Source: Apostichopus japonicus (Eukaryota > Echinodermata > Holothuroidea > Aspidochirotida > Stichopodidae). Taken from it: a stretch of 64,000 bases of DNA. The DNA lies in assembly GCF_037975245.1 (NCBI RefSeq), contig NC_092579.1, positions 30,826,666 through 30,890,665 on the forward strand, read 5' to 3'. Below are positions 7,645-55,601 of the stretch, piece by piece. The notes under the pieces were generated by a model. That model did not search any database and was not told where the DNA came from. It worked only from the letters and a program-made list of their open reading frames with translations. The position numbers and the translations under genes are program-made. How positions within the stretch are numbered: the stretch's first letter is position 1; each line of letters opens with the position of its first letter.

Positions 7645-7653
7645 GTATATATT

Positions 7654-7704
<51 letters not shown>

Positions 7705-23100: not shown

Positions 23101-23565
23101 ATGGTTCCTGTTTGCTCTCTAATTTGTCCCTTATTATACAGATACCTATGGTTCCTGACTGCTCTGTAATTTGTCCCTAATATATGACTATAGTTCCTGT
23201 GTAAGAAACTGCTATGCATCTTTGGACATGTATAGCAACTTGGAAATTTTTCATAGCATTTTTCATCGATTTCAATACTGGATAAATTATAGCAACTTTG
23301 TTATGTGTCAATGTAACGTAGACTGCAGATATAAACATGATACAATTTGTTTAGTCGATCATAACCAATCAAGATTTGATAAATGAATTTGACTAACTTT
23401 ACATTATTTAAAGTTACCATTCCTACCTTGTGCAATTGGTTTCCATCGTCGACATACTTGCATGGCAGATTGCAATTCACCATACAGTGAAAGGTATGTG
23501 AATACTGAATGAAGCAGTTCTGTTGGCAAGTCATTAAGTTGCAACCCAGATGGTGGTGATGCCAT
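17129..23565 (-). CDS. FBXO42: F-box/kelch protein, FBXO42-like
   Basis: FBXO42 is a substrate receptor of SCF (SKP1-cullin-F-box) ubiquitin ligases. Seven minus-strand exons: 23427-23565, 22090-22329, 21184-21457, 20575-20665, 19859-19909, 18984-19103 and 17129-17542. They join in frame (1329 nt, 442 residues) with GT-AG borders throughout. Exon 1 encodes the F-box (LNDLPTELLHSVFTYLSLY ... VCRRWKPIAQ). Exons 2-6 encode a kelch propeller: DHANCMHGRCLYVFGGF, YNDLWKVDM, RRPSPRGYAYLLP, LILCGG, DDKHLLVLTN. Exon 7 starts VGKYIIVFYPLEG, resembling the FBXO42 block VGQCVVVFSQAPSG, and ends with a strand (TAQVVILGW) resembling the FBXO42 C-terminal blade. Human FBXO42 has 717 residues; the long disordered linker is mostly absent here. 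A 5' UTR exon probably starts at 23959 (donor GTAAGT), splicing to 23615, with a tiny upstream frame ATG AAC TGA. It could be a separate F-box/kelch subfamily; the F-box/kelch assignment itself is firm. Confidence 0.72.
18605..18700. repeat. Interstitial CCCTAAACCCAAT repeat
   Basis: About seven degenerate 14-bp copies of CCCCTAAACCCAAT lie in intron 6 of the FBXO42-like gene. The C-rich word is reminiscent of telomeric CCCTAA/CCCTAAA, but the period is 14 bp. Confidence 0.8.
22008..22060. repeat. CACCA/CATCA simple repeat
   Basis: Tandem ACACC and ATCACACC units, about 50 bp, just inside the intron after exon 2 of the FBXO42-like gene. Confidence 0.85.
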
Positions 23566-23958
23566 CTTGCTTGAAGGATATAGAAAAGCAGGTCAGTCCT
23601 CCTCAGTTCATCAAGCTACAAATTAAACATTACAAAATGGTTGATTCAGCTATTTATGAATATATTAAATACTTGATCATATGGAATAATGAATGTGATA
23701 AAATTTGTCTTACTCATGTTAAGAGATAGCTTGTTAACCATAATCTGCCTACACCATTAACAAGACCAAGGCCCTAGGACTAGACTACAAATGCATTAAC
23801 AATCTTTCGCAAAACAGGTACTATCCTATGCTATGGACTATTTCATGCCAGCGATGATACACATTACAGAAAAAATAGCACAGCAAGGAAATTTTGTTTA
23901 ACGTAAAAAAGATGCATAGAAAGAAAGAAGAAAAAAATAATTACTGCCTCTAACTTAC

Positions 23959-31509: not shown

Positions 31510-31581
31510 TGGTTATGGACTAGGCTAGGCCTAGTGTTACGAATCTTAGTTCATTGTACTAGGCCTAGGTGAAGTACTCAC

Positions 31582-31734
31582 ATCACAAAGTTTGTGATTG
31601 GAGTTCGCCTTCCAGTGAAGCCTGTTTACTTTTGCCTCCCAAGTTTTCCTCCTATCTAGGTTTGTTGGGAATCTGAAAAGTTTTGAACCATTTTCGGGAC
31701 GATTTGAACAGCCCCACGCTGAACAGCCAGGCAT
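31582..31734 (-). CDS. THAP zinc-finger exon (transposon-borne, partial)
   Basis: This 51-residue first exon starts MPGCSAWGCSNRPENGSK, followed by LFRFP, a conserved Trp and HKLCD before the donor GAT|GTGAGT. It fits the N-terminal THAP C2CH finger: Cys4 and Cys9, the RFP motif, a central Trp and Cys50; the expected Cys-x2-His partner would be in the next exon. THAP domains bind DNA and occur in P-element transposases and in host THAP proteins. Its position inside the right terminal repeat region favours a transposon origin. I could not find the following exons at lower coordinates, so this is a fragment or a truncated gene. A single-exon host THAP gene is less likely because the donor site is strong. 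Confidence 0.7.
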
Positions 31735-31865
31735 TTTGTGATGGCAGCGCAGATGTTGACTGCTCGAACGTACGTTGTTGTCGATCTTACGGCCAGAATT
31801 AGTTGGCCCCAAAATGGTGCCATGAGGTCACGTGATCGAAAATTCCGGGACCCGAGTTGTCGCAA

Positions 31866-31973: not shown

Positions 31974-34807
31974 CCAACACCCCTAGCGCCGCCACTGTTT
32001 TATAATTACCCTGAGATTTTTCCCTAGTTACAACATAATGACAAACATAATGCAGCTATGAATATTTAAATACGCCTTGACAGGAGATATATATGCCATT
32101 CATTTACCATTCAACGCGTTTGCTATTCCGCAAATATTCTGCGAAATGTGTAGCAGACGGCCTGTAGCTGAGCCTAATTGGTTGTTTTCGACGACGGCTT
32201 TTGAACTCGGTGCCTAGTACTAGTAGTAGTAGTCAGTCAGTCACTCAGCATCCAGTATCTTGATTCATGTGGTGTGCAGCTACATTATTTCCATGCCGAA
32301 CTGAACAGCCAGTTTGTCGACTGGGCCGATCTAGCGTACGGACTACATCATCGGGAGTCTTGGGTACATTACAAGAAAAAGAGTTACATCGGCTACAACC
32401 TAAATTCAGTGATGCTGTTACTAGACAGGTGAGAAGGTAATACAAGTTAACTCATTCATATTCATAATTCATAGTTCCTGGCTTACCCTAGACCTTTATA
32501 GTATATTGCGAAGTTCGCCATACTGCGAAGTTCGGGCACCCTAAGAAATACACGATTTTCACCATGAAAACCTACAGGAAGAGCCAAATTTCACCAAAAA
32601 GTACGAAGCTACAGTTATTTTCTCTCCAAAATGACCCGTGTGCAAGAAATTACTTACATATTTGTCAATAAAATGACGAAGATCTATGAAGTCTGTTATA
32701 ATTACTGAAAGAGCAACAGCGCCACCAATTTTTACCAGCGCCACACTGTAGGTTGCGTGGCCGAAATTCGCAATACTCTAGCAAGAAATACCAGTTCCAC
32801 AATCACGAAGAATCTTCTTGGAAAACAACGTGAAAACAGTTTGCAGGAAAGAAAGTTTGGCCGTGTATCGTACTATAACAAAATTCTCCCACCATATGAA
32901 GTATATTTTCTGGTGATTTAGACCAGAAGATTTAGTTTTGGGGTGTTTTAAGTCTTAAGTGGGCGAACTTCGAAGTCACCATCCTACCCAGGGCTACATG
33001 TAGTCAACAACGCAAAAATTTAAAGTAAAGCAAATGTCGACGATCCTTCGTCGTGCATTCGGTTAGTTTGTCGAATTTTGGTAATTTAAAACCACCTCAT
33101 TTTGACGCTCTCTGCCCTGAGTAAACTGAAAAGGAAAGTTGAGTTAGGTATGGCCTACCCGAGGCCTAAAGGCTCAAGTGAGTGTTGGCGAACATGGAAT
33201 TCATGGATTGGTTAGTGTAGACCTAGGCTAAGCCCTAATTCCAGACAAGCAGCGCTTAGTATCATTTCATGGTAGCCTTACAATATTACTTCAAGATGTT
33301 TGCAAGTCTGTTAGCAGTTGCCAGGTCATTGTTGTTAAACAACTCATTACAAACTAGGTCTAGTAGGTGTTCAGTATGTGTGTAGTAGTTACAGCAGAAT
33401 ACGATCACTAATGAGTCATAGGCCTACTTGCTTAAGTGATGCAAAGCAGTAGCTTCCTTATATTTTAAAGTGACGTTTAGTAAACTGAACTAATGTTATT
33501 CCCTAATCCTTCATACGCACATACTGCACACTCCTAGTTTGCAATGGTACAGTATGTTCATAGACAATGAGGTGACAACCACTAATGGACTTGATCCGAC
33601 AGCAGTAATTTTATATGCCTAATTGAAATGTTTTCATTGGGTTATAGTTACACTTTAACTCATGCCTACCTGTAGTCTATGCCTAGGCTAGACATGTTGT
33701 AAGTGGGATGCCATGTTTTAAAGTTAGACCCACAATCTATGCCTTCTATCACTATCCTCCTGCCATTGTTTCAACCACCCTACCCCCTCCACCTTCCTTG
33801 TCAAATACCTGGTGGGATCACTTTTTATTTGCAAAACTGGTTGGTTTGGGACTTTGGATGAGATAATTTCATTGGGGGAGGGGAAACCAAATATTTTGTA
33901 TTGGTGGTCATCCCCACACCCCCAACCCTTGACCATGACACTACAGCAAGTGTAGGGACACCAAAAGGGTAAAAGACACTCTGATGGTCCATGCTATAAT
34001 TATTTCTCCCAAATTCCATGGTCATGTGACCCTCTGGCTGTACCATATTACATGGCTGTGTGTGAGCTACACATCCCTGGAATATAAGCATGCTTACTAG
34101 ATACTGTAAGTTACAGTATACAGATTACAGCTGCGCAATACAGTTCACATACTAGCCTAGAGATTACATAGAATACACAGAACTACAGGATTACACAGGT
34201 CCTACACAGAATTACATTAGAGTACAGATAAAACAAGGCTGTCATACCCTACAATGTGAACCTCTATTTGCTTTCACTCTCTACAGAGTTTATAAATTTG
34301 CCATTTATATGAACTTACAATATAATACTATAGATTTGTAACCAAATTTTAAACATTCCAAGGTAGTTAAGTTGGTGGTCATGAGTTCACTCAGGTGTGC
34401 AGTTCATTTGATATGAAAGCTAAAATGAGGTACAGTAATTCATATCAAACTCTGGAAAAAAAGTTAGCTTTAGTAAAATTTTGCTTTTTAGCTTTAGACA
34501 AAGGGCTACATGATTCATGCAAAGAACAAATACCCTTGCCTTACTGAAGAAGTCAAGGAGAGTGACTCACTTTAATGAATTGCAATCCCTAGTTTCGAGT
34601 ATTATATTTGCCAGCCACACATACTGTACAGAAGCTGCATGGTATACTTTAATATCTAACAGTGCATTGAATAATTCCTTCCTCAGATTGAACGAATCAT
34701 TCTTCTTCATAGTGATTATGAATGCTGGTCCAGTGCAAGTAGAAGACTACTGTACATAAGAGAATGTGGCATGATAAGAAGACACCTGACCTGTATTAAT
34801 CATTGCA
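31974..34807. other. Upstream region of the TAZ-pseudokinase gene
   Basis: No coding sequence is recognised. A candidate non-coding first exon ends at 32428 (CTAGACAG|GTGAGAAGG). It has no long frame (its ATG at 32293 meets a stop after two codons), so it could be 5' UTR spliced towards 34808. The remainder is AT-rich, with several TAGGCCTA-like words. Confidence 0.35.
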
Positions 34808-37800
34808 ATGGATCACTTAGAGAACAAAGACGAGCTTTGCCAGAAATTAGGTAACACAGTTATTACACAGGTAAAAGTGCCTTCAATTGAGATAAACGAA
34901 CCCGAAACTGGGACTGTATCAAATCAAAAACGAAGCATACAACGGTGGTGTCAACTTCAACGACAGTATGCACAGTCAGAAAGTATTGACCATGAAGCAG
35001 ACCTTGATTCTGGTGTAGGAGCTAGCTTGTCATCAAGTTTTTCTTCTAGTTTTGCTTCTCGATCGGATTATGGTAGTTTTGATAGAAATTTGTCAGAACG
35101 GAACACTCCTTCTGATGTATCTGATGGGAGGCTAGAGGACCGAAATGAAGTATGGGGGAAACAATCACTGGATGTACCCAATCGCCAACCGCCAAGAACG
35201 CAGCTTTCTCAAGCATCTAGTGGGTTTTGGGGAGAAAGTGATGATGTTGAAGATCCTCTGAGTTTAAGCAATGCTAGTAGTGTATTCGCGGAAACTGACA
35301 CACGCCCATTGTGGCAACAGGATTGTGAAAACCTAATTAAACGATTAACAACAGACAGATTGTCCAGTTTGATTGCAGGGGCCAATTCAATCTCAGATGT
35401 TTGTGAAGTTAAAAATCAAACATGTGATTGTAGTGTGCGTAGCACCGACCTACTTATATCAGACACAAGCTGCAGTGGTGAGTTAAATTATAAAATGTAT
35501 TTTGCAAGATACTCATCAAATTATGGTCATTTTCTTGCTAGATCTACAGTAGACTGTTTTTTGTTACCATTATCCACAATAAAGGTATCATGCAATGGCC
35601 TTCTTTCCCTTGGAGTGGTAGGACGCCGTTTTCATTGGCCAGTACAAATCGACACTCCAGATTTATTAAGCAATGCAGAAAACTCCATAGATTAAATTTC
35701 AAAGGCTAGAGCTTGCCAGTTGGGACCTTTTGTAAGGACTGTTCTGGTCTCTTGTCCATTGTATTGTTGTAGGATTGTTTGTTCATGTCTTTATATTTTG
35801 TTATATTTTGTATACTGTTCACTGTTCACTGTTTTATACAAGCATTCATGTACCATTTGTGGGGTTTAATTAAGTTTATCATATCTTATCAAAGCAAGTC
35901 ATAATAGTACTGGCAATTGTGTGCTACCACCCTCAGTCCTGAAACAATGCAATTGTAGATACAGTACCTGATATTCTCTGTAAGGTTTGTTGTACACATA
36001 CATGACTATAATCTGGACAAGTCATGTATTCACATACATGAATGTGAGCTGGACGTGTCAGGTATTCACATGCATGACTAGGAGCTGGTGGAGTCATGAA
36101 GTTACATAATATGACTATAATCTGATGTGTCATGTATTCACATACATGACTATAAACAGGACATGTCATGTATTCTCATACATGACTATAAATTGGAAGT
36201 GTCATGTATTCAAATACATGTCTATAAACTGGACAAGTCATGTATTCACATGCATCAATGTGATATGGATGTGTCATGTATTCACATACATGACTATTAA
36301 CTGGAAGTGTCATGTATTCTCATACATGACTATAAATTGGAAGTGTCATGTATTCAAATACATGTCTATAAACTGGACAAGTCATGTATTCACATACATG
36401 AATGTGAGCTGGACGTGTCAGGTATTCACATGCATGACTAGGAGCTGGTGGAGTCATGAAGTTACATAATATGACTATAATCTGATGTGTCATGTATTCA
36501 CATACATGACTATAAACAGGACATGTCATGTATTCTCATACATGACTATAAATTGGAAGTGTCATGTATTCAAATACATGTCTATAAACTGGACAAGTCA
36601 TGTATTCACATGCATCAATGTGATATGGATGTGTCATGTATTCACATACATGACTATTAACTGGAAGTGTCATGTATTCTCATACATGACTATAAATTGG
36701 AAGTGTCATGTATTCAAATACATGTCTATAAACTGGACAAGTCATGTATTCACATGCATCAATGTGATCTGGATGTGTCATGTATTCACATACATGACTA
36801 TAAACTGGACGCATCATGTATTCACATACATGACTATTTAACTGGACTTCATGTATTCTCATTGAAAGTAAATACCTAAAAGTAGGTAAACTACATCTTG
36901 AAAGCTAAAATTCCTTGATTTGGAAATATCTATTTATATTTACAGTTGTCCATGTCTTGTCAAATTTTCTTTCAATTTTACAGGTTCTTTGGAAACTCCA
37001 CCTGATGGTATGTCAGGACCTATGGAAACAGATTGTGGGTGTGATTCATTAGGTACGGACTTTTGTTTTTTACTTGCTTTAGACAGACAAGGTACCAGTA
37101 CCAAAAAGTTGTCATGTAAGTGTGTGTGGGTGTGAGATATCTCACTCCTCAGCTCTTAAACATGATATCTCAAGAAAGAAAATGAAAATATATTTACACA
37201 AGTTTGACAAAATTGGCATGTGAAGTTCTTAAAACCATATTTCTTGTTCATGGACAGCAGTTCTTTATTCACTGTCAGAGGTAAACCATCAGCACAAATG
37301 AATACACTATTGAAAGATGGTAATTGTTTTTCTGACCAGAAACAGGACTGGAAAATATTCTGGCATTTTTAATTTTTGGTTACTTGCCACTCTCAGCTAA
37401 AGTTCAGATTTATTTTTGACAATACACTGTTAAAAGAGCCACAAGTAAGACATAATTGTAACAGGATTCTGAGAACTCTGCAAATAAACGACATTGAATA
37501 TTGTACTAAATGTATGCAACAGTGTTTTAAACATTTCATTTTGAAACTGGCTATAAGCATGCTTAGTTCAGCTTTCCTAATATGGCAAGTAACCATAGGG
37601 AGAGTGTAGTCACCCTGATCATGTTTGGTATCACTTTTAGGCTTTCATTTTGAAACTGGCTTAGTATAATTAAGAACTGGTATGTGTGTAGAATAAAGAA
37701 TTGGTATACAAGATAAATGGTATGTATACAGAATAAAGTATATAATGCATCCAGAATAAAGTACTGGTATGCATACAGAATAAAGTATTGGTATGTATAC

Positions 37801-40800
37801 AGACTAAAGTACTGGTATGTATACAGATTCTAATAAAGTATTGGTATGTATACAGGGAAAGCATTGGTATGTATACAAAAAAAAGTACTGGTATGCATAC
37901 AGAACAAAGTATTGGTATGTATACAGAATAAAGTATTGATATGTATACAGAATGTATACAGAATAAAGTACTAGTATGTATACAGAATAAAGTATTGACA
38001 TGTATACAGAATAAAGTATTGGTATGTATGCAGTAAGATGTATTGGTATGTATACAGAATAAAGTATTTGTATGTATATAGAATAAAGTACTGGTATGTA
38101 TACAGAATAAAGTATTGGTATGTATACATAATGTATACAGAATAAAGTACTATTATGTATACAGAATGTATACAGAATAAAGTATTGGTATGTATACAGA
38201 ATCTAAAACACTTGTAACTTTGTTGGATATGAAAAGTTTACGAAAGTCACAACTCATGTGTTATTTAAATGTGTTGGGGTTTGCATTAAAACACACACAC
38301 ACATCCAAGTACCAATTTAAGGTTAAAACTATTGATTGTTTAACAAGGAAACAGTTAAACAATGAATGTCTTAATATCATGACTTTTCTATTTTGCTTTG
38401 ACAGATCCAGTAACAGGTGACAGTAACAGGGGCATGGGTCTTGTGGTAGCTAATCTGTGTAAACCCAGGAAGGCAAGAAAGCCAAAGGACATCACTACGT
38501 CACAGATACGATGTAAATCATGGGATTGTTTAGAAGTATGTATGTAATTAAATTCTGTAACATTGCATTGTTAACGTAATTTATGTTTCTATTCCCAATA
38601 TCGTTAGGGGTAAGTTCATGTTGTAGCCAATACAAGCAAAGTATTCATCTTGTCTGTTGAATATTCATTTGCAATCTATAATTTCAATTTTAACTCATAT
38701 TCCATTAGAAGCAGCATCTCACTTAATTTTGAATTGAGTGGAGTGAATACTTAAGTAATTTATTTGTTCATAGCCTGGGGCAAAAGGAATCGTTGCCATG
38801 GTATTAACATACGTGTGTTGCTTGGTGTGTTAGTGTATGTGATGCCTTTGACTTATAAACAGATAACTCAAAATATACACGATTGAAATATACATTGGCC
38901 TTCTTGGTATGTATAGCCCCCCTGGTAATTTGGTAAATGCAATGAAATTGGTGGAAGTCCACTTTAGGTCCTTTTGAGGTCCAAAGCGGTCAAACAGGAT
39001 AATGCAAGAGGTTCATTTTGGTTTAAGTTTAGGTAGATTCCCATGGTAAGTATGGATATGGTTTATATGTAGTAGGTAGACTGCCTGTGGTTAGTATGGG
39101 TATGGTTTATATGTAGTAGGAAGGTTCCCTGTGGTTAGTATGGGTATGGTTCATTTGTAGTACATAGATTCCCCATGGTTAATATGGGTATGGTTCATAT
39201 GCAATAGGTAGATTGCCCATGGTTAGTATGGGTATGGTTCATTTGTAGTTGGTAGATTCCCATGGTTAGTTTGGGTATGGTTCATATATGTAGTAGGTAG
39301 ATTCCCATGGTTAGTATGGATATGGTTCATATGTAGTAGGTAGATTCCCCATGGTTAGTATGGGTATGGTTTATATGTAGTAGGTAGATTCCCCATGGTT
39401 AGTATGGGTATGGTTCATTTGTAGTTGGTAGATTCCCATGGTTAGTTTGGGTATGGTTCATATATGTAGTAGGTAGATTCCCATGGTTAGTATGGATATG
39501 GTTCATATGCAGTAGGTAGATTGCCCATGGTTAGTATGGGTATGGTTCATATGTAGTAGGTAGATTGTCTGTGGTTAGTATGGGTATGGTTTATTTGTAG
39601 TAGGTAGATTCCCATGGTTAGTATGGGTATGGTTTATATGTAGTAGGTAGATTGCCCATGGTTAGTATGGGTATGGTTTATTTGTAGTAGGTAGATTCCC
39701 ATGGTTAGTATGGGTATGGTCTATTTGTAGTAGGTAGATTCCCATGGTTAGTACAAATACCTGATGGACAGTCTTTGGACTTTGACAAATGAGTGGTTCA
39801 TGTCATGGCTTCTTACAGTACTGCATTGTTGTGTTGATCGGAGTACACTATGATAATGGCCGTCTGGATTCAATGGCAGGTTTTCTATCAACGATGATTG
39901 GAAGCTGAACACATATCTGCAAGATACTCTTGAGAATGATGAAGGCATAATGCATGGAAGTTGTAATTAGTTTGAACTTAATACTGTAGATCATTTATTG
40001 GAGGCCACCTGCTTTCTCTCTCTCTTTTCATTTTAAATGTTTTACAAAAGATGGGACAGAGCCATTAAGGAATGAGTTGGGTGAGATGTCAGGTGCAATA
40101 ATGGACGGAGATGAAAAACCCGTTCTGTACTGAAATCAAGCAGCTGTTACTAGTGCAGTTTAAGCTCTGGTAACACAAACTGGTGGCTTTCCGTTTAGTT
40201 GATACCATGAAATAGATCCCAAACCAGAGTTGATTGGCTTGAACATTGATACAGCTATGAACTTGATAGCGATTTCTGCTTTGCTCACAGGCACAGTACT
40301 TTCTTGTACTGATGGATCGGTGTTTTCATCTTGGCACACTTCCCCATTGCACTCGTTGCGATGGAACACTGCACAACGTACTAGACCATAACAGGACATG
40401 TCAAGAATCCCACTGCAGCATGCCATTCTGCCGAGCCATTACACAACGGTATGTACATGTCAGGAATACTCTCCCTAGTGAGCACTGCAAACCCTCATTT
40501 CTGATGCAAAAGAACAAGTGAAGTATATATATATTCAACACATGTACGACCATTTCAAATTTAAATCAAGCAAATTCTTGATTAAAGAAGTTGGTTGTGA
40601 AAACAAGATGCAGCCAAACTGCAGTTGAATATTAACCTAAGAGGATCACCATTTTCGAAATCACACAAAAGGTATTGATTGTGATGGTAGCGGTGGGGTT
40701 TGTGGGGATTCAGTTATAATAGTGGAAGGTATATAAAGGGAATCTTCCATGAGTTATATGCCATTAATGTGCTGTACATTGTTCATTCAATGTATGAAGT

Positions 40801-43800
40801 GTTCTCGTTCAAGTTGTGAGTTCATGGAGGGGCAGTGCAGTCCTGCTTTGATTGATATGCTTTACGTAGTATGCCTAGGCAACCACTGAGCCTATTGTGT
40901 ATATTGTGCTCATATGCATGAGATATACAGCCTCAATGCAATCACCCTTCCAGTCTTTCTGCTTTACAATTGCTTTGTCACCTTTCAGGCATGGATATTG
41001 TACGCCCTATAGTGTTTCATCAAACAAGAGTGTGAAATCTTGTGTGCCATTTCCTGTGTAACACTATCCATTGACTGACACCAATCTGTGTATAGCAACT
41101 TTTGTTTAGGTTGTAAAACTATGGCTTTACTGTTATGTGGCTGTTATGCTTCATAAAACAACAGCTATCCATGCTGATGTACATTGTCCCAGTTTATAAT
41201 TTGTAGTCATTTAGTAATCTAATATCTATAAGTACAGTGCTCAGGGGATTTCCATCTGTTCATTGTAAGTAGACTAGTGGGCCTGCTAGGCTAGTACTGT
41301 ACTCAACTGATGTTTTACAGGTTGCCTGGGCATAGCCAAGCCCTCATGACATCGATGTTCCACAAATGTTTTTAATTGTCCTAGAAATGAATATATGAGT
41401 ACCATTTGTTTATGAATACACAATAGTCACATTGCAATACCCACTTTGCAAGCTCAACCCCTTCCCGGATCTGAGTGACAATATAAAATAAGATTTCAAA
41501 ATGATGTTTTCTCTGAAAGTGTTCAAATGAAAGGAAAATGCTTTGTGAAGTTTGTGAACAACCAACTCACATGAAATATTCCTGTATATATTGCATGTAT
41601 ACAAATAGCGAACCATATTATGCAGTTTAATACTGTACCCGGCATTGAGATTGGTTGTTGACAGAAATCAACTTTCAACTTTAACTTGCCAAGGTACTGC
41701 TTTATCATCTAAATCAGGGTTGTCCAACCTACGGCCCGCGGGCCACAGTCCGGCCCGCCGCAGGGTTGTGTCCGGCCCGCCACAGGGTTGCGTCCGGCCC
41801 GCCTCAGGGTTGCGTCCGGCCCGCCTCAGGGTTGCTCTACGTTGCGAAATTTTAGTGAGCAGATTTATTGATAACAATTTGAAGCTATATAGTCAATCAT
41901 TCGAACCTTCTGGGTCCAAAAAACTGCATACAGGTCAGTTTGTGTGACACCCTCTCAACGGAGGGGGGGGGGGAGTGGGCTGGAAAATAAATCAGTGCGC
42001 TTCGCGCGCAGTGCTCACATTTTGTTGCCTTGGGCTTCGGGCAAAAAATTGAAAAATCGAGCGTAGGGTTCATGCGGCCTCCTCCTTGATCATAATCATT
42101 CCATGTGGCCCTCCTCTGCAAAAGGTTGGACAACCCTGATCTAAATACTACTCTGTGTAAAATTGTGCAAAGGTAGTCTTATTACTATTATTGTGTAGGC
42201 TAGTATATGATGAACTGGGGTGGACTAGCCCACGATTCACACTTGCCAAGTAAAGTTGGCGAGTGTATTTGGCAAGGCCTATAATTTAGCCTATTATGAT
42301 TATGTTGTTTATTCAATAGTTACATAATTTTGCCTATTAACTGCTAGCAATGTATATTATGTTGTACATTCAATAGTGACATAATTTTGCCTATTAACTG
42401 TTAGCACTACATGCTTTATATATTTTACTGTCAATAGTTACATAATTTAGCCTAGTAACTGCTTGCAATGTATGTTATGTTGTACATTCAATAGTTACAT
42501 TATTTTGCCTATTAACAGCAATGTATGTTATGTTGTACATTCAATAGTTATGTAATGTATGCTTATGTTTTCCTTTAAGATAGAGATTAAGCCTATAAAG
42601 TGCTAGCAATGTATACTTATGTTGTGGTTCAATAGTTTTATAATGTATGCTTATGTTTTCCTTTAAGATAGAGATTAAGCCTATTAACTGCTAGCAATAC
42701 ACTTTCAGTACAGTGGTTTGTGATTTAGCCAGTAGCTGCCAGTAATGTATGCTTAGCCTATTTGCTCTGTCATGTCTTCTTCTTTTTCTGTTACTTCAGG
42801 CGGACAATGCTTGGCCGACACCTAGGTATAGAGGAAGTGAAAGGAGAGGTTTCCATTGCTGGTAAACTCTCTGTTATGGAACAGATGTCAGCTACTATTC
42901 ATTCCTTTCCTGGTGCTCAGGTAAGGCTCAAAAAGTCATTCTCAATAGATGTTGTCAGGAGGAGGGTGTGTGTGTGTGGGTGGGGGGGGAGGGGCAAAGC
43001 AGGGTGGTGTAGAGGTGGTTGATGATTATGATGAACCTTAACTTAGTAAACTTGACTCATTTCAGATGATTATACAGAAAGCAACGGTTTGGCTATAGAG
43101 ATGGTATGGATATAGTCCTCACCATGCTATGACTTTGAAGTAAATATATATTATTTTCTCATTTCGTACATTAAACGAGAAAAACATGTAGTAACATTGC
43201 ACTGGGCTCAAACCATCCTGTAATGATGTTCTTCCCTTAGAGAAAAGGTTCTGCAAGGTCCATTCATATGACTTGTGACTACTTACAGACTCACAAAAAT
43301 TGATCATAAAAGAGTTCACATTAATTATGATGATCCTACTCTTCGTTCAATATGCAGGGTAAAATTTAGTGTTCAAAACTTGCATCTATAGCAGTTTTGA
43401 AAGCTGCATATTGTTTTTTATAAAATAATATGGTTTAATGTTTAAATAAAAAACTGCTATAGATCTATGTAAAAGTTTTTTCCCAATTTTGTGATGAGGT
43501 ACTAGATAAATTATTCCCTGTTATGTCAGTCCTTCATTCATGTGTGGAAATGTAACAAAATATTTGAATCATATTTACTGAAAAGCTAGCAGAATCTTCA
43601 GAAGGGTTAAAATATATCAAGGAGAATCCATATATCTTGTAGTAGTGAAGTACTTCTGCAGCTACAGTCCACACAAAACCATTAATGTTATTTGAACTTG
43701 TAAAATCAATTGCTTCTGTACAGTCTCAGCTGTTTCACTATGATATAAAATAAACTTGAACATAATATTTGCTTTTGAAGTTGTCAAAGAGTGGTATTGA

Positions 43801-46800
43801 TTTTTTTCTTGAAAAAGAAACACCTCCCTATTGTATGGATATTGACATTGTGGTTGCTATGGAGAAGTTGTTTATGATTGTAATTTGGTGCCATCTGCAT
43901 TAAATAGTGTTGTTCTGATTGTCAAACTCTGTTTGACCTTGATCCATTAAAAACATTTTCTACTGGAGGCAGCCTCATGCTGTGCCCATTTCCCCAGAGA
44001 TATGCAAATTGAGGCTTGTTAAATGGTTTGGGTGGGACCATCATATGTTGCATTTACATCTTGTAGGCCCCACCCCAGAGATATGCATATAGAGGCAATT
44101 AAATAGTTTGAGTGTGACATCTTGTAGGGCCCACCCCCCAGAGATATATAGAGGCATTTTAAATAGTTTAAGTAGGACCAATTTTTTTAACCGGATACCC
44201 AACTGGTAACGGCTCTCGGGTAACCGGTTCCTGATTTTAGACCTGTGTAAACACTATAAGATGAACCATTTCATCTAAACAGTACCAAATATTACCTATT
44301 TATATGAACCTTAGATACCATTTCATCTAAACAATATTGATGTTCCATATTTAGATGAACTAACATACCATTTCATCTGAACAGTACCAAATATTATCTA
44401 CTTAAATGAACTTACATACCACTTCATCTATACAATACCAAATATGACCTATTTAGATGAATTTACATATCATTTCATATACACAGTATCAAATTTCATC
44501 TATCTATTTATATGAACTAACATACCATTTCATCTGAACAGTACCAAATATTATCTACTTAAATGAACTTACATACCACTTCATCTATACAATACCAAAT
44601 ATGACCTATTTAGATGAATTAACATATCATTTCATATACACAGTATCAAATTTCATCTATCTATTTATATGAACTAACATACAATTTCATCTAAACAATA
44701 CCAAATGTGACCAATTTAGATGAACTTACATACCATTTCATCTAAGCAATACCAAATATTACATATTTAGATGAAGTTACATATCATTTCATATACACAG
44801 TATCAAATTTCATCTATCTATTTAGATGAACTAACATACCATTTCATCTAAACAATACCAAATGTGACCAATTTAGGTGAACTTACATATCATTTCATCC
44901 AAGCAATACCAAATGTGACATATTTAGATGATTTATATGAACTAACATACCATTTCATCTAAACAATACCAAATGTGACCAATTTAGGTGAACTTACACA
45001 CCATTTCATCTAAGCAATACCAAATATTACATATTTAGATGAATTTACATATCATTTCATATACACAGTATCAAATTTCATCTATCTATTTATATGAACT
45101 AACATACCATTTCATCTAAACAATACCAAATGTGACCAATTTAGATGAACTTACATATCATTTTATCTAAGCAATACCAAATGTGACATATTTAGATGAT
45201 TTATATGAACTAACATACCATTTCATCTAAACAATACCAAATGTGACCAATTTAGGTGAACTTACACACCATTTCATCTAAGCAATACCAAATATTACAT
45301 ATTTAGATGAATTTACATATCATTTCATATACACAGTATCAAATTTCATCTATCTATTTATATGAACTAACATACCGTTTCATCTAAACAATACCAAATG
45401 TGACCAATTTAGATGAACTTACATATCATTTTATCTAAGCAATACCAAATGTGACATATTTAGATGATTTATATGAACTAACATACCATTTCATCTAAAC
45501 AATACCAAATGTGACCAATTTAGGTGAACTTACACACCATTTCATCTAAGCAATACCAAATATTACATATTTAGATGAATTTACATATCATTTCATATAC
45601 ACAGTATCAAATTTCATCTATCTATTTATATGAACTAACATACCATTTCATCTAAACAATACCAAATGTGACCAATTTAGATGAACTTACATATCATTTT
45701 ATCTAAGCAATACCAAATGTGACATATTTAGATGATTTATATGAACTAACATACCATTTCATCTAAACAATACCAAATGTGACCAATTTAGGTGAACTTA
45801 CACACCATTTCATCTAAGCAATACCAAATATTACATATTTAGATGAATTTACATATCATTTCATATACACAGTATCAAATTTCATCTATCTATTTAGATG
45901 AACTTATGTGTACCTTGTGTTGCCAGATATTTCCTTCCAATATTGTTAACCTTGAGCCATATCTTCAGTTATCTTAACGCTGTGTTTAAGCTATTTTTAT
46001 CATTTGGAATTTCCGCCTTGTCTGGTAAGTGATAATGTACACGTGTAGTTAGTGTAGTACTGTATGTACACAGTGTGATTATATGCATAGATTAGATGAT
46101 CATACCGTAGTGTGTTAGTATAGTATGTAAAGATATAATCAAAGTGACCTGGGATGTGCTCAGGAACATTTGAGTGCCCGGCAGAGTTGTGTCATGGGGC
46201 GGGGTCTAAGGGGTGGGGGTGTCCCCCCCAAATTTTTGCTAATGTCTGTGCCAAGTATTCACCCATATTTTGATAACGGTAAAATTTGGTAAATTAATCA
46301 TCAAAAACAGTGCCAGGCGAAAATGTTTAAAATACTGTTTATGCTGCACAGCATTCAGATATAATCACACTACATTGCATGTCTTGTTTTAATTGCACTA
46401 CATAGCATGGCATGTTTTAATTACTACATAACTGGCATGTTTAATCACACTACATAGGATGGCAGGTTTCAATTAAACTAAATAGCATGGCAGTCTTTAA
46501 TCACACGTCACATCATGGCTTGTTTTAATCAAACTACATAGGATGGTAGGTTTTATATCAAACTACATAGGATGGTAGGTTTCAATCACACATCATAGCA
46601 TGGCGTGTTTGATCAAACTACATAGGATGGCAGGTATTAAAGCAAACTACATAGGATGGTAGGTTTAATCGCACCACAGAGCATGGCAATGATGGCATGT
46701 TTTATTAACTACATAGGATGGCAGGCTTAAGTCAGACTACATAGGATGGCAGGTTTAAATCACTCTACAAAGCATGGCAGGCTTAATCATACTACAAAGC

Positions 46801-48708
46801 ATCAAAGGATTTAATCAAAGTTCAAAGAGTGACAGGTTTGAATCAAGCCATGTAGCTTGGCAGGTTTGGACCAAGCTATGTAGCTTGGCAGGTTTTAATC
46901 AAGCTATATAGCTTGGCAGGTTTTAATCAAGCTATGTAGCTTGGCAGGTTTTAATCAAGCTATGTAGCATAGAAGTTTTTACCCAAACTATACAGCATGG
47001 CAGGTTTTAATCAAACTATGTAGCATGGCAGGTTTGAATCAAACTATGTAGCTTGGCAGGTTTTAAATCAAGCTACACAGAATGTCAAGGGGTTATGTCA
47101 TAGAATTTAAGATTAGTGCTAGCTAATATGTCAGCAGTGTTGCTTGGACCAGACCTTGTATATAATTCTAGCACCAGTTGTAACGGCCATCTTAAAGGTT
47201 ATGTTTACTTCTTTAAAATGGCAATCTCAAGTACCATCCAAGGTTCATTCAGTAGCTGCTGTAAATATTGCGATGGTCTCTATGACAACAAAGCTCAAAG
47301 TACATATTATGCCTAGTAATATGCCTTAAATCTGTAGTAGTTCCATGGTAGGAACACAGTAGAAATCCAAGTTACATTTCATATTCAGATTTGATATAAT
47401 AAATGAATTTCATTCATTTTTAACTGAAGATTGTTACATTGAACAAGAGATACCACATAGCTGCTGCAGTGCTAGACCCTTTCTATTCAACCTGTTGAAA
47501 CACATTAATCCCTGTGAAGGAGAAATTGTTAGATCATGCAGTGTACTTAATGAGTACGTTAGTCCACACATTGTAGCACACACACTCACACACACATTGA
47601 TCATCAGGTAGGCATCATTGTTCATGCAACCAGCAATTTTAATACTGTAACAGGGAATTCCAGCCAGGACTTGATTAGAACATTTCAGTGGAACTGTGTA
47701 TTACAAATGGGTCCTTCACATCCAAAGTTCATACAGGTTACCTGGAAACAGAACTTTCTGAAAATGGTGATTGTTCACAGGAAGTCCTAAAGGCATTACT
47801 ATTAAAGATGAATGAGGAATAGTTCAAAGAATGTGCTGCTATTGTTGTCACAGAAAACCCCTGAGACAATTTTGGGTCCGCTGAATTTTCGGAATACTAG
47901 GGTGTTTACGCCCGTACGATGCAAGATGCAACAATTAAACAAAAGACCAATATTAGTTATTACAATGACGAATTTAATGACCAATAATAATTATGTCGGA
48001 CTTATACAAAATATTACAACATCATTACTTACATTACTTATTGATAAAATACTTGGGTTTATGTTCAGTTAATAAGGTCATTCAATAATCATAACAACGT
48101 GATGTTAACTTTTATTACAATGTAAATGCCCGCTCGGACAAGTTGCTATAGCGTAATTTTAAAGATCCTAAAATCTGCTTAAACCTCCAGAGACCCTGAA
48201 AGACAAACCAGTCGGCTTATCAGACCAATCGCATAATTATACTGAGAGTTTTACAAGCCATCAACTTTTAATAGTCAACCTACAGGAGATTTAAATTTCC
48301 ATACAACTTGTGACAATTGTCAAGATAAGAAGTCTGACTTAATTTAAATAACTATGTGTTTGTGTCTTTGAAAAAAAAAAAAATCAAACAAAGGTCAAAT
48401 TATTGGATCATACACTAACTATAACAGGATCTCATGCAACTCCTCCAAGACAAAGAAGGTTCATTACAGTGAATGGGTGCCCAGACCTATACTGGATGTG
48501 TGTCAGGCCAATAGTACCTCCTCATGGCAGGTCTCCTTCTCCTACCCATCATCACCCCCTTCTACCCATCATCACCCCCATACCAGCCATGACCCTGCCG
48601 ATATAAGACATACATGAGTTTTTAGCTTCTAACTGGTTGTTTTGGACCTTATTTGAGCATTCATACAGAGATCATATTCCTTGCAGGTTTGTGTTGTGTA
48701 AATAATAC

Positions 48709-48748
<40 letters not shown>

Positions 48749-49466
48749 CCTTCTAACAGGGTCATTAAATTACATTTTGCATTATATATTAGACCAACTT
48801 TGGTGCACAAAAGAGTGATCATTGTATTTCATGATATTCTGTTACAGTTTGCAGAATTTTCAACTTACTTCACTCCTCGCTTATTTGTCTCCCCAAAACC
48901 TTAGCATCTTGTTCTACCGTGCCTAGAATGAACTGGTAACCTTTTTACACTGCGCCCTCTAAGACCGGCTCCTCCGGACAATGCCTTTCCTTTTCATTCT
49001 ACCATCCAAAGTTTTTCATCTGGTTTTTCCTGATCATTCAAGTAACTTGTGATAGTTTTTATAACCTGTAGATACATTTCAGTACATGAACAGTATCCTG
49101 TAGGACTGTAAATGTGTTTCCTTCCTTCTTTCTTACTAAACCAACACGTATTGGAATGTTAACAAAGGACTTGACCTGAGACCTTTGCATTGGTGTGTTT
49201 GTGTTATATTTGATGAACTGATGTGAAGGAAGTTATTCTTTTGATGTGACAGTTGGAAAATCCCTTTTGATACATATATTCGATTTTGTAGAAGTTCAGA
49301 TAATAATCTTCTTTGTTTTCACGTAAAGATTATTTGGGTGGTTTCGTTTTGTTCCTTGTCTTGCTATTTTGATTTAAAATACACAAAAGTTATTGTTGAG
49401 GTTGTGAAGTATGCTTGAGTTATACTACAGTATGCTACAGTAGTATGCTACAGTAGTATCTTGATA

Positions 49467-49501
<35 letters not shown>

Positions 49502-52500
49502 AATATATAAAGAGTATATAAAAGAGTAAAACTTACATGAATTTCCTACCATGTTCATAGAACCTTGTTCTACAGGCAGATCAGAATGGTGTTGTTTTTA
49601 TTAAGGTCACTGTTTATGTGAGGCCAGTAGAGGTTCAAGTCTGAAAACTTTGTAGACAACTCCCAAAAGTAAAGCTTGGATGAAAATCATACTTTGCATT
49701 TAAATATAGCTTAATGAGTGCAAAGAACCCTATTGTTTCATGGCAATGTCATTTGAGGCCAGTGGAACCCAAAGTCAGACAATGTTGTAGACATGTTAGT
49801 TTCAATCTTAAACTGCTTATATGAGCATCATACAGTTCATGTTCAGATCACAGAGTAAACGAGAAGGTCAAACATAATTTCAGCTCAACAATAACAAAAG
49901 TCTAAATTGTAATGCCAAAGTTAAGCTTTGTACTAGTTCTGTTGGAACTTTTTGTTGTAGAAAGTTTTATTTTGTCTTGCCTTTGATAGTATTGTTTCAA
50001 CACAAAAAAAGCAACTACAGTGTGAAATGAGATCAAGTTTACAGTAGTTAAGGTATGTATTCAATATGTACATTTAAAGAAGTTTAGATGAAGAAAGGTA
50101 TACAGCTTTTGACTGCAAATGTGTTAACATTTTCATTTGTTTAAATATTTTTCAGATTCCTGATAGTGATATTGCAAAGGACGCATGCGAATTCCATCCT
50201 TTCCACTTCTTGGGTGACTTTGGCAAGTTCAATGTGCTGCTTGCTCGTTTGAAAAGGAATGACAATCAGCATTCCACTGTAGTTATCAAACAGGTATATC
50301 TTCTTGATGCAATGTCATGCATCCTGTATAGGTTAATATCGATATTAATATGAGTTGAAGCAATATTGCAGTATTTTGCCATGGACCAAGCACATTTAAA
50401 ACAGTAATATTATTATGAATAAATTATCAATTATAAATTATTAATTATTATAAATCATAAATATTATAAATTAATTAGAACACAGACACATACCGGTACT
50501 ATTAATTCTCCTCACCAGAACACAGACACATGCCGGTACCATTAATTCTCCTCACCAGAACACAGACACATACCGGTACTATTAATTCTCCATACCAGAA
50601 CACAGACACATTCTGGTACTATTAATTCTCCTCACCAGAACACAGACACATTCTGGTACTATTAATTCTCCATACCAGAACACAGACACATTCTGGTACT
50701 ATTGATTCTCCATACCATAACACAGACACATGCCGGTACTATTAAATCTCCATACCAGAACACAGACACATGCCGGTACTATTAATTCTCCATACCAGAA
50801 CACAGACACATTCTGGTACTATTAATTCTCCATACCAGAACACAGACACATGCTGGTACTATTGATTCTCCATACCATAACACAGACACATGCCGGTACT
50901 ATTAATTCTCCATACCAGAACACAGACACATGCCGGTACTATTAATTCTCCTTACCAGAACACAGACACATTCTGGTACTATTAATTCTCCATACCAGAA
51001 CACAGACACATGCCGGTACTATTAATTCTCCTTACCAGAACACAGACACATGCTGGTTTCTATTAATTCTCCTTACCAGAACACAGACACATGCTGGTAC
51101 TATTAATTCTCCATACCAGAACACATGCCGGACATGCCACAGACATATGTTGGTTTAATTAATTCCCTTTTAATCACATGGTTATAGTATGGTACTGTTT
51201 CACAGAATTTCTATCAATGCCAGACATTTGCACTTCTGACAAAATCGATCATGATTAAAGCTGTGAGAAACAAGAGGAGCTACTTTTAAGTTTTTGTCCT
51301 ATTCTATACAAAATTGTGCAAATGATTGATGTTAATAGGGAAAGTCTTGTCATGAAGCTCTGAACACAATTGGAGCAGCTTAAGTCTAATTAGTGTTTCT
51401 GTTGCTATGTACTTGAAATGGCAGATATTAACTAGATTGTATATTTCTTGTTTTTTCTTCTTCTGCTTTACTTTAGCTTACAAAAAGAGAAACCTTATTG
51501 CCAGCTCTGCAGATAATTCAGGGTCTTGACTGTGACAACTGGGTGAACGTGATTGACCTGGTTGATACGGAGGCCCATCTTTTTGTCATTTCAGACTTTG
51601 TGAAAGGTGAGAGAAATTTAGTTTGTTTTTGCATTGCACTATTGATGATGGTGGTATGTGATTGCACTATTGATGATGGTGGTATGTGGTATGTCATTGC
51701 ACTATTGATGATGGTGGTATGTCATTGCACTATTGATGATGGTGGTATGTGGTATGTCATTGCACTATTGATGGTGGTGGTATGTGGTATGTCATTGCAC
51801 TATTGATGATGGTGGTTTGTGGTATGTGGATGCTCTGTATTGTTTGTAGTGGAGGTCAGTGGTCATTTGATGTAAACACATCAGACAGTCAGTCAGTCAG
51901 TCAGTTAGTCAGTCCAGTGTGATAGCTTACTGTAGATAGATCTCATATCTATGTTTAATAGGTTAACCCTGTACTGATAATCTGTTTGGAGTATATGCAT
52001 GTTTCCCATTCTTTTTACTAGAAGTTAAAGGTCATTTGAGGTCAGAAAACCATGCAATCTGGTTGTCACATGCATTGAATCTTTGGAGATTATCATCTGC
52101 TGTATATGGATGCCCCATACTGAATAGATGAACGCTATATTTGCATAAGAAGATAAAGGTCGTTTGTGGTCATCAGAGGTCAAAGTCAGAAATGTTTAAA
52201 CAAGATATCTGAAGGAAGAAACCTTGCATGAATTTCTTCTGTTGTATGTGGAAGCACCCTATATTGATTAGATAAACCAAGTTTATCCAAATAGAAACAA
52301 ATAGAGAAAATCTTTGCATCATATGTAACACAGACATGTACTACTTGAAGTTTGATTCTTGAGTCACAATTGACGTAACTTGGCTCAGTTTCATCTCTTG
52401 GTTAAACTTGGCTCAGTTGCATTAATTCAGTGTATTAATTTGTTCAATGACATCACTCGGTTCAGAAACAATCCTCCAGAAGGCAACTTGTTATATTTCT

Positions 52501-55500
52501 TACATAGGATTATCATTTCAAGAAATCTTGGAGACGGAAGGTGACTGGGATTGGCAGATTCCATTTGAAGAAGTTGTTTCAGCCCTGAGTTTCCTCCATC
52601 AGCACAATATTCTCTTTCTTAATTGGGATTGTGAGTATAATGGCTAAAGTTTCCACATTTACACCATTAACATTCTTTAAAACAATGTGATTACATTCTC
52701 GATCTTAATTGGGATTGTGAGTATAATGGATTAAGTTACCACATTACCACCATAAACATTCTTTAAACAATGTGATTACATTCTCGATCTTAATTGGGAT
52801 TGTGAGTATAATGGCTTAAGTTACCACATTACCACCATAAACATTCTTTAAACAATGTGATTACATTCTCGATCTTAATTGGGATTGTGAGTATAATGGA
52901 TTAAGTTACCACATTACCACTATAAACATTCTTTAAACAATGTGATTACATTCTCGATCTTAATTGGGATTGTGAGTATAATAGCTAAAGTTTCCACATT
53001 TACACCATTAACATTCTTTAAAACAATGTGATTACATTCTCGATCTTAATTGGGATTGTGAGTATAATGGCTTAAGTTACCACATTACCACCATAAACAT
53101 TCTTTAAACAATGTGATTACATTCTCTCTCTTAATTGGGATTGTGAGTATAATGGCTTAAGTTACCACATTACCACCATAAACATTCTTTAAACAATGTG
53201 ATTACATTCTCGATCTTAATTGGGATTGTGAGTATAATGGCTTAAGTTACCACATTACCACCATAAACATTCTTTAAACAATGTGATTACATTCTCGATC
53301 TTAATTGGGATTGTGAGTATAATGGCTTAAGTTACCACATTACCACCATAAACATTCTTTAAACAATGTGATTACATTCTCGATCTTAATTGGGATTGTG
53401 AGTATAATGGATTAAGTTACCACATTACCACCATAAACATTCTTTAAACAATGTGATTACATTCTCGATCTTAATTGGGATTGTGAGTATAATGGATTAA
53501 GTTACCACATTACCACCATAAACATTCTTTAAACAATGTGATTACATTCTCGATCTTAATTGGGATTGTGAGTATAATGGATTAAGTTACCACATTACCA
53601 CCATAAACATTCTTTAAACAATGTGATTACATTCTCGATCTTAATTGGGATTGTGAGTATAATGGATTAAGTTACCACATTACCACCATAAACATTCTTT
53701 AAACAATGTGATTACATTCTCGATCTTAATTGGGTTGTTATTCTTCTTCACTCTGTACATTTAGAAATAAATTGTCAAAGTGTTCACTGTGGAATTGGAT
53801 TTATTTTATTTTATATTATATTATATTTATTGATATATTATATATTAATAATATTACATTATTAAATTTTAATATGATATTTTTAAATTGTAATACTATA
53901 TTATTAAATTGTAATACTATATTATTAATTTTTAATACGATATGATATGATATTATATTGTTTGGATTTGTTATATTGGAATTTTTTAATTATTTATTCC
54001 TCCTTTGACATTAAGCTAGCATATTGTATAGTGTTTGTTGTGAGTCAATGCTATTTTGTGTTCAATGGTTTGAGTTTACCTTACTAACTGTTTCATTTCT
54101 CTGACAGCGGATAATATCATTTATGGCAAACCTACAACTCTGTTGATCAGCCAAGGTTCTTTAACTCTGATACCAGATGGTGCTCCTTCTGTCAAAGTGG
54201 ATGCTACACTGTTGGAGGGTATCTCCCCTCGGATAGCTGCACCAGAGGTAAGGAATACACATAAACAGTCAATATCGTACAGATTTCTGGCATAATATTG
54301 GCATAGTGCTAACTATCATCAGTCACATGAACATGAAAAGGTGCTGTCATGGTGCTATATGTCATCAGTCATACCACATCAGTTATATGAACCCTGGAGG
54401 TAGAGGACATGTTCTTTTGAGATAGTCATTGCTTGGACGTGTTCTTTTGAGGTAGCAGTTGCTTGGTAACTGTTGCTTGGTATCCAAGCATACATTGTTT
54501 GTCATAAACTGTAAGTTGTGAACCATCCAGACATGATCCCTGGAGGTAGAGGACATGTTCTTTTGAGATAGTCATTGCTTGGACATGTTCTTTTGAGGTA
54601 GCAGTTGCTTGGTAACTGTTTCTTGGTATCCAAGCATACATTGTTTGTCATAAACTGTAAGTTGTGAACCATCCAGACATGATCCCTGGAGGTAGAGGAC
54701 ATGTTCTTTTGAGATAGTCATTGCTTGGACATGTTCTTTTGAGGTAGCAGTTGCTTGGTAACTGTTTCTTGGTATCCAAGCATACATTGTTTGTCATAAA
54801 CTGTAAGTTGTGAACCATCCAGACATGAACCAAGGAGGTCGAGGACATGTTCTTTTGAGATAGTCATTGCTTGGACATGTTCTTTTGAGATAGTCATTGG
54901 CTGGACATGTTCAGTTGCTTGGTAATTGTTGCTTGGTATCCAAGCATACATAGTTTGTCATGAACTGTAAGTTGTGAACCATCCAGACATGATCCCTGGA
55001 GGTAGAGGACATGTTCTTTTGAGATAGTCATTGCCTGGACATGTTCTTTTGAGGTAGCAGTTGCTTGGTAACTGTTGCTTGGTATCCAAGCATACATTGT
55101 TTGTCATGAACTGTAAGTTGTGAACCATTCAGACATTATCCTGAAGTGACTTGAGATGATACACTGAGCTGCTATTAATGTTGAAACTATATCCATTGCT
55201 TCATTCCAGATTTTGGAGTTAGGTGATGTAAGTTATGCTGCAGACATCTGGGGTCTTGGAGTCCTTTGGTACCAATTGATAACCAAAACTAAGCCTTACA
55301 GGGAGGTAAAACACAAGACTCTGGCTCAAGCAAGACACACAGTAAGTTTCTGATTGTTTGATGACAGTGTTGTCCACACTGTTAGCATGCTAGCAGTCCA
55401 ATATAATTGTCTCAGAGGTTTCAATGCTCACACACTATCAATTGTACATTTTCTCCTCTTTAGATTCGTACAAACAGTAAGCCACCAACTTCCCCAGTTA

Positions 55501-55601
55501 GCGATCCACAGAATATTGTTGAGCAGTGCTGTTGCTGGAATCCTGACGATCGCCCTTCTCTGGAATACTTGAAGAATCTCGTAAAAGTATCAATAACCTG
55601 A
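34808..55601 (+). CDS. TAZ-type zinc finger / pseudokinase fusion protein
   Basis: Eleven exons join in frame to 649 residues: 34808-35477, 36984-37052, 38405-38535, 40291-40448, 42800-42920, 50156-50293, 51477-51606, 52508-52630, 54108-54247, 55210-55341, 55464-55601. Residues 1-245 are polar and Ser-rich. Residues about 259-343 fit a TAZ finger: C283-x4-C288, C288-x12-C301, C310-x2-C313, then H323-x3-C327-x4-C332-x4-C337, spaced as in CBP/p300 TAZ2. Two of three ligand His appear replaced. Residues 384-649 form a kinase fold: degenerate glycine loop LGDFGKFNVLLA, VVIK (Lys428), helix-C Glu434, IAAPEI and ADIWGLG (Asp572). HRD is replaced by FLN (509-511), the catalytic-loop Lys by Asp513, and no DFG is present, so it is probably a pseudokinase. 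Some catalytic-loop spacing recalls RPS6KC1, but I do not assign a family. TAZ domains usually bind transactivation peptides; the role here is unknown. Confidence 0.82.
36001..36855. repeat. 36-bp minisatellite with 360-bp higher-order unit (intron 1)
   Basis: About 24 copies of a unit around CATGTATTCACATACATG and ACTATAAACTGGA. A ten-unit block of 360 bp is repeated nearly exactly (36125 onward and 36485 onward). It yields open frames on both strands with periodic HVF and YMTIN repeats; these are artefacts. Confidence 0.95.
37678..38203. repeat. ~24-bp minisatellite (intron 2)
   Basis: About 20 copies of TATGTATACAGAATAAAGTA plus TTGG, with single-base variation. Confidence 0.95.
39031..39752. 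repeat. ~43-bp minisatellite (intron 3)
   Basis: About 17 copies of a unit containing TAGATTCCCATGGTTAGTAT and GGGTATGGTTCATATGTAGT. Confidence 0.95.
41715..42138. mobile_element. hAT MITE (CAGGGTTGTCCAACCT termini, intron 4)
   Basis: A 424-bp element with inverted termini CAGGGTTGTCCAACCT / AGGTTGGACAACCCTG. A perfect 8-bp target duplication ATCTAAAT is at 41707-41714 and 42139-42146. The subterminal GGCCCGCGGGCC palindrome is familiar from hAT elements in many animals. It holds about four copies of a ~21-bp GGGTTGCGTCCGGCCCGCCT repeat and no transposase. Confidence 0.92.
42296..42720. repeat. ~60-bp degenerate tandem repeat (intron 4)
   Basis: Degenerate copies containing ATTCAATAGTTACATAATTT and GCCTATTAACTGCTAGCAAT run up to about 80 bp before exon 5. 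Confidence 0.85.
44240..45905. repeat. Satellite-like array with 268-bp higher-order unit (intron 5)
   Basis: About 1.67 kb of ~50-bp subunits built on CATACCATTTCATCTAAACA and ATACCAAATGTGACC. A 268-bp higher-order unit is exact in phase (the word AACTTACACACC starts near 44991, 45259, 45527 and 45795). Confidence 0.95.
46350..47085. repeat. ~30-bp minisatellite (intron 5)
   Basis: About 24 degenerate copies of TAGCATGGCAGGTTTTAATC plus AAACTATG, with subfamilies (CTACATAGGATGGCAGG, then CTATGTAGCTTGGCAGG). Confidence 0.9.
48712..48746. repeat. (TA)n microsatellite
   Basis: About 17 TA dinucleotides in intron 5 of the TAZ-pseudokinase gene. Confidence 0.9.
49471..49498. repeat. (TA)n microsatellite
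   Basis: About 14 TA dinucleotides in intron 5, preceded by a short CTACAGTAGTATG repeat. Confidence 0.9.
50479..51125. repeat. 40-bp minisatellite (intron 6)
   Basis: About 16 copies of a 40-bp unit: AACACAGACACATGCCGGTA followed by CTATTAATTCTCCATACCAG. Variant sites (CCGG/CTGG, TGCC/TTCT) recur. Confidence 0.97.
51636..51815. repeat. ~38-bp minisatellite next to exon 7 donor (intron 7)
   Basis: About five copies built on CATTGCACTATTGATGATGG and TGGTATGTGGTATGT, starting about 30 bp after the exon 7 splice donor. Confidence 0.92.
52617..53732. repeat. 85-bp minisatellite that includes the exon 8 splice donor
   Basis: The unit contains CTTAATTGGGATTGTGAGTA, which in its first occurrence is the 3' end of exon 8 (CTTAATTGGGATT, ending 52630) plus its donor GTGAGTA. 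It is followed by AAGTTACCACATTACCACCA and AACAATGTGATTACATTCTC. About 12 further full copies follow, then a truncated copy ending TTAATTGGGTTG near 53735. Confidence 0.97.
54385..55135. repeat. 146-bp tandem repeat (intron 9)
   Basis: About five copies of a 146-bp unit with GGAGGTAGAGGACATGTTCT, GGTATCCAAGCATACATTG and GTTGTGAACCATCCAGACAT. Copy four is rearranged. The array gives six look-alike minus-strand open frames, which are artefacts. Confidence 0.95.

Follow-up and report, generated by a model that had tools for sequence, protein, structure and literature searches.

Background

TAZ modules, whose fold is a four-helix bundle that binds activation-domain peptides, are known from CBP/p300 and from plant BTB-TAZ proteins, and the DM domain of doublesex/DMRT proteins has a pair of intertwined zinc sites, one CCHC and one HCCC. 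The TAZ2 domain binds three zinc ions, each held by one His and three Cys, according to an excerpt of PMC12022988. The usual motif criteria for pseudokinases are given in PMC7586955, an excerpt of which also describes Tribbles as scaffolds for E3 ligases. The nuclear gene described here lies on the forward strand of a 64,000-nucleotide stretch of Apostichopus japonicus DNA (NC_092579.1, positions 30,826,666 to 30,890,665; the window, numbered from its first letter). An original prediction, made from the letters alone, described a TAZ-type zinc finger fused to a pseudokinase and covered positions 38405-55601, which correspond to exons 3-11 only.

The full chain of 11 exons (34808..55601, +) yields exactly 649 residues in frame with zero internal stops when exon 2 ends at 37052, and GT/AG borders are present at 10 of 10 introns. 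The predicted join of 11 exons to 649 residues without a frame break is therefore exact. In our preferred reading, to which we give about an even chance, this single gene encodes a non-catalytic scaffold of ~650 residues composed of a pseudokinase and a degenerate, TAZ-derived docking module.

The pseudokinase domain

The C-terminal half of the protein is a true protein-kinase fold. Pkinase matches the last 266 residues (384-649) with 77.7 bits (E 1.2e-21), well over the cut-off of 31.7, which bears out the kinase fold originally claimed. When the whole protein was scanned the score was 74.4 bits and the matched residues were 418-640. PK_Tyr_Ser-Thr also scored above its cut-off on the kinase part (69.4 bits). 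The best-scoring solved structures for this part are of the MARK/CAMK type, with MARK4 at E 2.9e-12 over residues 20-257 of the 266-residue piece. The domain is too divergent for family placement.

The kinase motif residues were read by eye from alignments to MARK4 and MARK3. The fold aligns with that of the MARK/CAMK kinases and shares their beta-3 Lys (K428), APE, F-helix Asp and last conserved Arg; the catalytic-loop Asn is also retained. In contrast to those kinases, the HRD motif is replaced by F-L-N (catalytic Asp to Asn511), DFG is replaced by Q-G-S (metal Asp to Gln529) and the C-helix Glu is replaced by Ala. A pseudokinase was defined by the loss of at least one canonical catalytic residue among the Lys, the catalytic Asp and the DFG Asp. 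Because the catalytic Asp, the metal Asp and the C-helix Glu are lost, the domain is predicted to be a pseudokinase by the usual motif criteria, as had been proposed. It resembles Tribbles and STK40, likened here by description and not by sequence, in being a pseudokinase with a replaced DFG; however, the table in the excerpt of PMC7586955 lists the catalytic-loop Asp as kept in Tribbles and STK40, while it is lost here.

The Cys/His module

Upstream of the kinase fold, exons 3 and 4 encode the string C283-x4-C288-x12-C301-x8-C310-x2-C313-x9-H323-x3-C327-x4-C332-x4-C337. The original prediction assigned a TAZ cysteine spacing to exons 3-5. The spacing is present in exons 3 and 4, but exon 5 has zero Cys, and the claimed pattern omits residues that a TAZ domain needs, namely the site-1 opening His and first Cys and the site-2 His. 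Site 3 is complete (H323/C327/C332/C337). Site 2 consists of L297/C301/C310/C313, with Leu297 in place of His. Site 1 has only its last two ligands (C283, C288); its opening His and Cys are absent at TAZ spacing, Val occupies the expected His position, and C265 is a poor substitute for the first Cys, with 17 residues between C265 and C283. No site-1 His that another splice form might supply was seen by eye in exons 1-3.

An alignment with p300 TAZ2 retains 9 of the 13 p300 Cys/His positions, with one single-residue insertion and 16 identities in 61 positions. We take the nine retained positions to be nine of ten zinc ligands, the exception being the site 2 His (Leu297). The module is thus similar to CBP/p300 TAZ2 in that the last ten ligand positions follow in the same order and spacing, apart from the insertion, and the third HCCC site is complete. 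It differs in the incomplete sites 1 and 2, in a score below the Pfam cut-off, in that no equivalent of helix 1 was found in the module, and in its host, which is not a histone acetyltransferase (HAT) protein.

A comparison with hhalign aligned the stretch to 60 of 85 TAZ columns with one one-residue insertion, 27% identity and a probability of 77.9%, leaving helix 1 uncovered; a true DM protein, used as a control, reached 0.3% with the same TAZ profile. Solved chains with a match at E <= 10 numbered 14, of which 12 were CBP/p300 TAZ2 constructs and 2 were DM. The best was a p300-p63 fusion (E 2.5e-4; best single stretch 0.0063), the remaining p300/CBP chains began at E 0.013, and the better DM chain had E 0.15. 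With the fusion set aside, the margin of TAZ2 over DM among solved chains is modest.

Local profiles were used to rank the 2927 six-frame fragments of at least 15 residues in the window. With a four-sequence TAZ profile, the exon-4 frame tops the window at 20.5 bits (next 10.8). Its score was reached by 0 of 2000 free shuffles and by 3 of 2000 shuffles in which Cys and His were fixed. For a TAZ2-only profile the corresponding counts were 0/2000 and 10/2000. Cys/His-fixed shuffles reached the p300 identity count in 196 of 20,000 cases and the BLOSUM score in 221 of 20,000. These comparisons suggest that a zinc module of TAZ2 type gave rise to residues ~283-340, which retain all of site 3 and part of sites 1 and 2, a reading that is supported but not proved. 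TAZ descent of the module is the likelier origin. The module is nevertheless not filed as a TAZ domain, since it reads as incomplete and sub-threshold.

As a separate observation, the TAZ and DM profiles meet on the same C-x2-C...H-x3-C-x4-C core in exon 4 (40291-40448), with similar weak scores. This common core raises the possibility of a shared ancestry of the two families.

Alternative explanations

Several results weigh against TAZ descent. None of the four forms scanned reached the Pfam curated cut-off of the zf-TAZ profile (PF02135, 25 bits): the scores were 17.3 bits (E 0.0066) with a trimmed piece in the first scan, 18.6 with exon 4 alone, 18.3 with a 106-residue piece, and an insignificant 7.5 (E 7.4) with the whole protein; the positive controls p300 TAZ2 and CBP TAZ1 gave 53.9 and 72.5 bits. 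Of the three HCCC sites, site 3 alone is complete and the other two are short of ligands, so the module lacks the full set of three expected for zf-TAZ. The claim of a TAZ-type zinc finger therefore holds as a resemblance (hhalign and solved chains) but not as a scored domain with its zinc sites intact, and the profile search proposed with it was split, with Pkinase above its cut-off (77.7 bits) and zf-TAZ below (7.5-18.6 bits vs 25). A TAZ1-only profile was weak (6.5 bits), its score being reached by 28 of 1993 free and 161 of 2000 Cys/His-fixed shuffles. A zf-TAZ scan of the animal's own genome at E up to 10, in which only first-look candidates were scored, did not pick up exon 4; it returned three candidates, all on one contig (C14), which read as one CBP/p300 gene. 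The AlphaFold2 model of exon 4 alone (exon 4 plus one intron base, 53 residues, the last of which does not differ from the spliced one) was uninformative, with a pLDDT of 56.2 and a pTM of 0.33. The codon score of exon 4 was reached by 217 of 1668 null stretches (13%), a type of scoring that is too weak to decide single exons. Further results on this side come from DM. The DM profile (PF00751) scored 17.9 bits (E 0.0029) in the first scan and 16.3 bits (E 0.0091) on the whole protein, both ahead of zf-TAZ, and in the local ranking a DM profile also placed the exon-4 frame at the top of the window (11.1 bits, next 8.2).

These DM scores raise an alternative that we consider rather unlikely but worth weighing, in which the pseudokinase was joined to a zinc motif of DM-related or independent origin, and the Cys/His stretch came to its TAZ spacing by convergence. 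DM is also slightly ahead on the 106-residue piece (18.6 vs 18.3 bits), and its real score was reached by none of 1988 free shuffles and by 10 of 2000 with Cys and His fixed. The likeness extends to the residues, as C-x2-C ... H-x3-C-x4-C is followed by a basic tail, and AITQRRTM after the last Cys resembles the DM tail. However, zf-TAZ leads on exon 4 alone (18.6 vs 17.1 bits), and the four DM scores are all below the Pfam curated cut-off of 27 bits, compared with 79.1 for a doublesex control. The hhalign probability for DM was 49.3% over 41 columns with a two-residue deletion, against 77.9% over 60 columns with one insertion for TAZ. Solved TAZ2 chains also rank ahead of DM chains. In the module the C-x-C-x2-C of DM is broken (Met for the middle Cys), the second DM zinc site is short of one Cys, and the NHG His is missing. 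The DM alignment loses two of the eight positions taken to be DM ligands. A DM scan of the animal's own genome gave exon 4 16.8 bits at a noise-level E of 5.2, while four matches over the cut-off scored 54.7-88.6 bits.

The remaining alternatives concern the gene as a whole. The two domains could belong to separate transcripts of neighbouring genes, with exons 1-5 in one and exons 6-11 in the other, and intron 5 is the longest in the model at 7.2 kb (42921-50155). This is improbable, as the phases match across intron 5 and the exon 6 frame lacks a Met ahead of the kinase fold. The kinase therefore needs an upstream coding exon, which exon 5 offers in phase; first exons inside intron 5 were not systematically searched for. 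The in-phase joins thus agree with the single reading frame through the TAZ and kinase exons that was first described. An active kinase working through an unusual mechanism would fit the retained beta-3 Lys and catalytic-loop Asn, but the joint loss of the catalytic Asp (to Asn), the DFG Asp (to Gln) and the C-helix Glu (to Ala) makes it very improbable. A decaying pseudogene is the least credible of these alternatives: both domains have degenerate motifs and the introns are repeat-rich, yet the 11 exons are open and in phase, the ten introns have intact GT/AG borders and the first exon has 223 stop-free codons.

Possible function

Under the preferred reading of a single scaffold gene, the zinc module may dock a short helical stretch of a partner in the way that TAZ domains do, and the pseudokinase would work through binding and conformation and not through phosphate transfer. 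The Ser-rich N-terminus may control protein stability through DSGVGAS, which we take to be a possible phosphodegron similar to a beta-TrCP degron. The role of a transactivation-domain adaptor is a guess. A broader proposal, which we regard as doubtful, is that of an undescribed animal family in which a TAZ module recombined with a pseudokinase. The product would act as an adaptor without catalysis, recognizing activation-domain-like helices and signalling to a kinase-like scaffold, possibly competing with or sequestering CBP/p300 ligands.

The architecture would be a new combination built from known parts. No TAZ-kinase protein was found among the open-licence literature matches listed (titles and abstract starts), and no paper in the open-licence literature paired TAZ and kinase directly, which is weak evidence of absence in both cases. 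The term "TAZ" is absent from the main text of PMC3019232, PMC4883820, PMC4177888 and PMC7586955. If the module binds activation-domain peptides, a kinase-like scaffold could sense transcription factors outside CBP/p300, and the gene would show that TAZ modules have spread outside the coactivators in animals. Without such binding, the gene would still encode a pseudokinase that carries an unusual zinc module.

In the animal's own genome (671.6 Mb), a search that covered exons 3-11 but not exons 1-2 turned up no second copy among the first-look candidates scored. Six of the 11 matches to the kinase part at E <= 0.01 were its own exons; the other five were weak (best 4.2e-4, 22-34% identity), and one of them (L009) reads as an ordinary kinase. 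Exons 3-5 gave four matches at E <= 10, three of which were the gene itself and the fourth had E 6.9. Viral contigs yielded 3 pattern-matched stretches and no confirmed relative of the kinase part; for exons 3-11, the bacterial and archaeal genomes yielded 32 such stretches, again with no relative confirmed. These collections were not built for animal genomes and are therefore silent on orthologues.

Gene structure and genomic context

The exons and the tandem arrays are given in Table 1. The ATG of exon 1 is preceded by an in-frame stop, and the exon lies inside the window's longest listed open frame (34790-35695, 301 codons). Its N-terminal region has an S+T content of 22% and the DSGVGAS motif at residue 67; Pfam scans matched no family in exon 1. 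Exon 2 is the weakly supported link of the gene model, because there are alternative in-phase donors, skipping is frame-neutral and the codon score is intron-like (reached by 2646 of 8611 null stretches). The other three donors would result in 634, 662 or 670 residues and skipping of the exon in 626. For the kinase exons, 7 to 15% of null stretches reached the codon score. An AATAAA occurs at 55846, 3' of the stop codon.

Table 1. Exons of the gene model and tandem arrays, in window positions (slash, exon border)
Feature	Position	Strand	Remarks
Exon 1	34808..35477	+	Start codon; 223-codon Ser/Thr-rich N-terminal region; donor G/GTGAGT
Exon 2 (tentative)	36984..37052	+	Phase-compatible; other in-phase donors after 37007, 37091, 37115
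Exon 3	38405..38535	+	C265, C283-x4-C288; matches final two ligands of zinc site 1 in TAZ; hhalign TAZ alignment starts here
Exon 4	40291..40448	+	TAZ2-like core; zinc sites 2 (partial) and 3 (complete)
Exon 5	42800..42920	+	Linker, zero Cys; placed by phase join and open frame
Exon 6	50156..50293	+	Kinase N-lobe, degraded Gly loop, beta-3 Lys428; Pkinase match, MARK4 alignment
Exon 7	51477..51606	+	Kinase C-helix (Glu to Ala) and hinge
Exon 8	52508..52630	+	Kinase E-helix, start of catalytic loop, HRD to F509-L-N511; 3' end in tandem array
Exon 9	54108..54247	+	End of catalytic loop, DFG to Q529-G-S, APE retained
Exon 10	55210..55341	+	F-helix D-x-W-x-x-G retained
Exon 11	55464..55601	+	Kinase C-terminus with conserved Arg; stop codon TGA
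Tandem array	35995-36862		
Tandem array	37718-38202		
Tandem array	39030-39753		
Tandem array	44265-45906		
Tandem array	46362-47084		
Tandem array	50477-51125		
Tandem array	52609-53738		85-bp unit, 13.3 copies, 96% match; starts inside exon 8
Tandem array	54387-55141		

Tandem arrays of more than 450 bp with differing units occur in 7 of the 10 introns (1, 2, 3, 5, 6, 8 and 9), and introns 4 and 7 have shorter arrays. The 3' end of exon 8 and its donor form unit 1 of the 85-bp array, and every unit repeats the last exon bases and the 5' splice site. The array contains 13 exact copies of TTAATTGGGATT/GTGAGTATAAT, which correspond to the true donor and 12 decoys in intron 8. Use of a decoy brings an in-frame stop in the three that were translated.

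Other gene-like features also lie in the window. The neighbouring stretches 6012-8646 and 12130-14973 (+) have open frames that are similar by eye, like a tandem gene duplicate. One exon of the latter reaches EF-hand_1 with 26.6 bits (cut-off 25.4), whereas an FKBP_C match (17.7 bits, cut-off 21.1) and additional EF-hand matches in the two stretches stay below the cut-off. An F-box and Kelch gene in pieces is located at 21180-23592 (-), with F-box-like at 41.9 bits and Kelch_1 at 26.2 bits, both above their cut-offs. A THAP domain fragment at 31546-31827 (-) scores 28.0 bits against a cut-off of 23.9 and is possibly transposon-derived.

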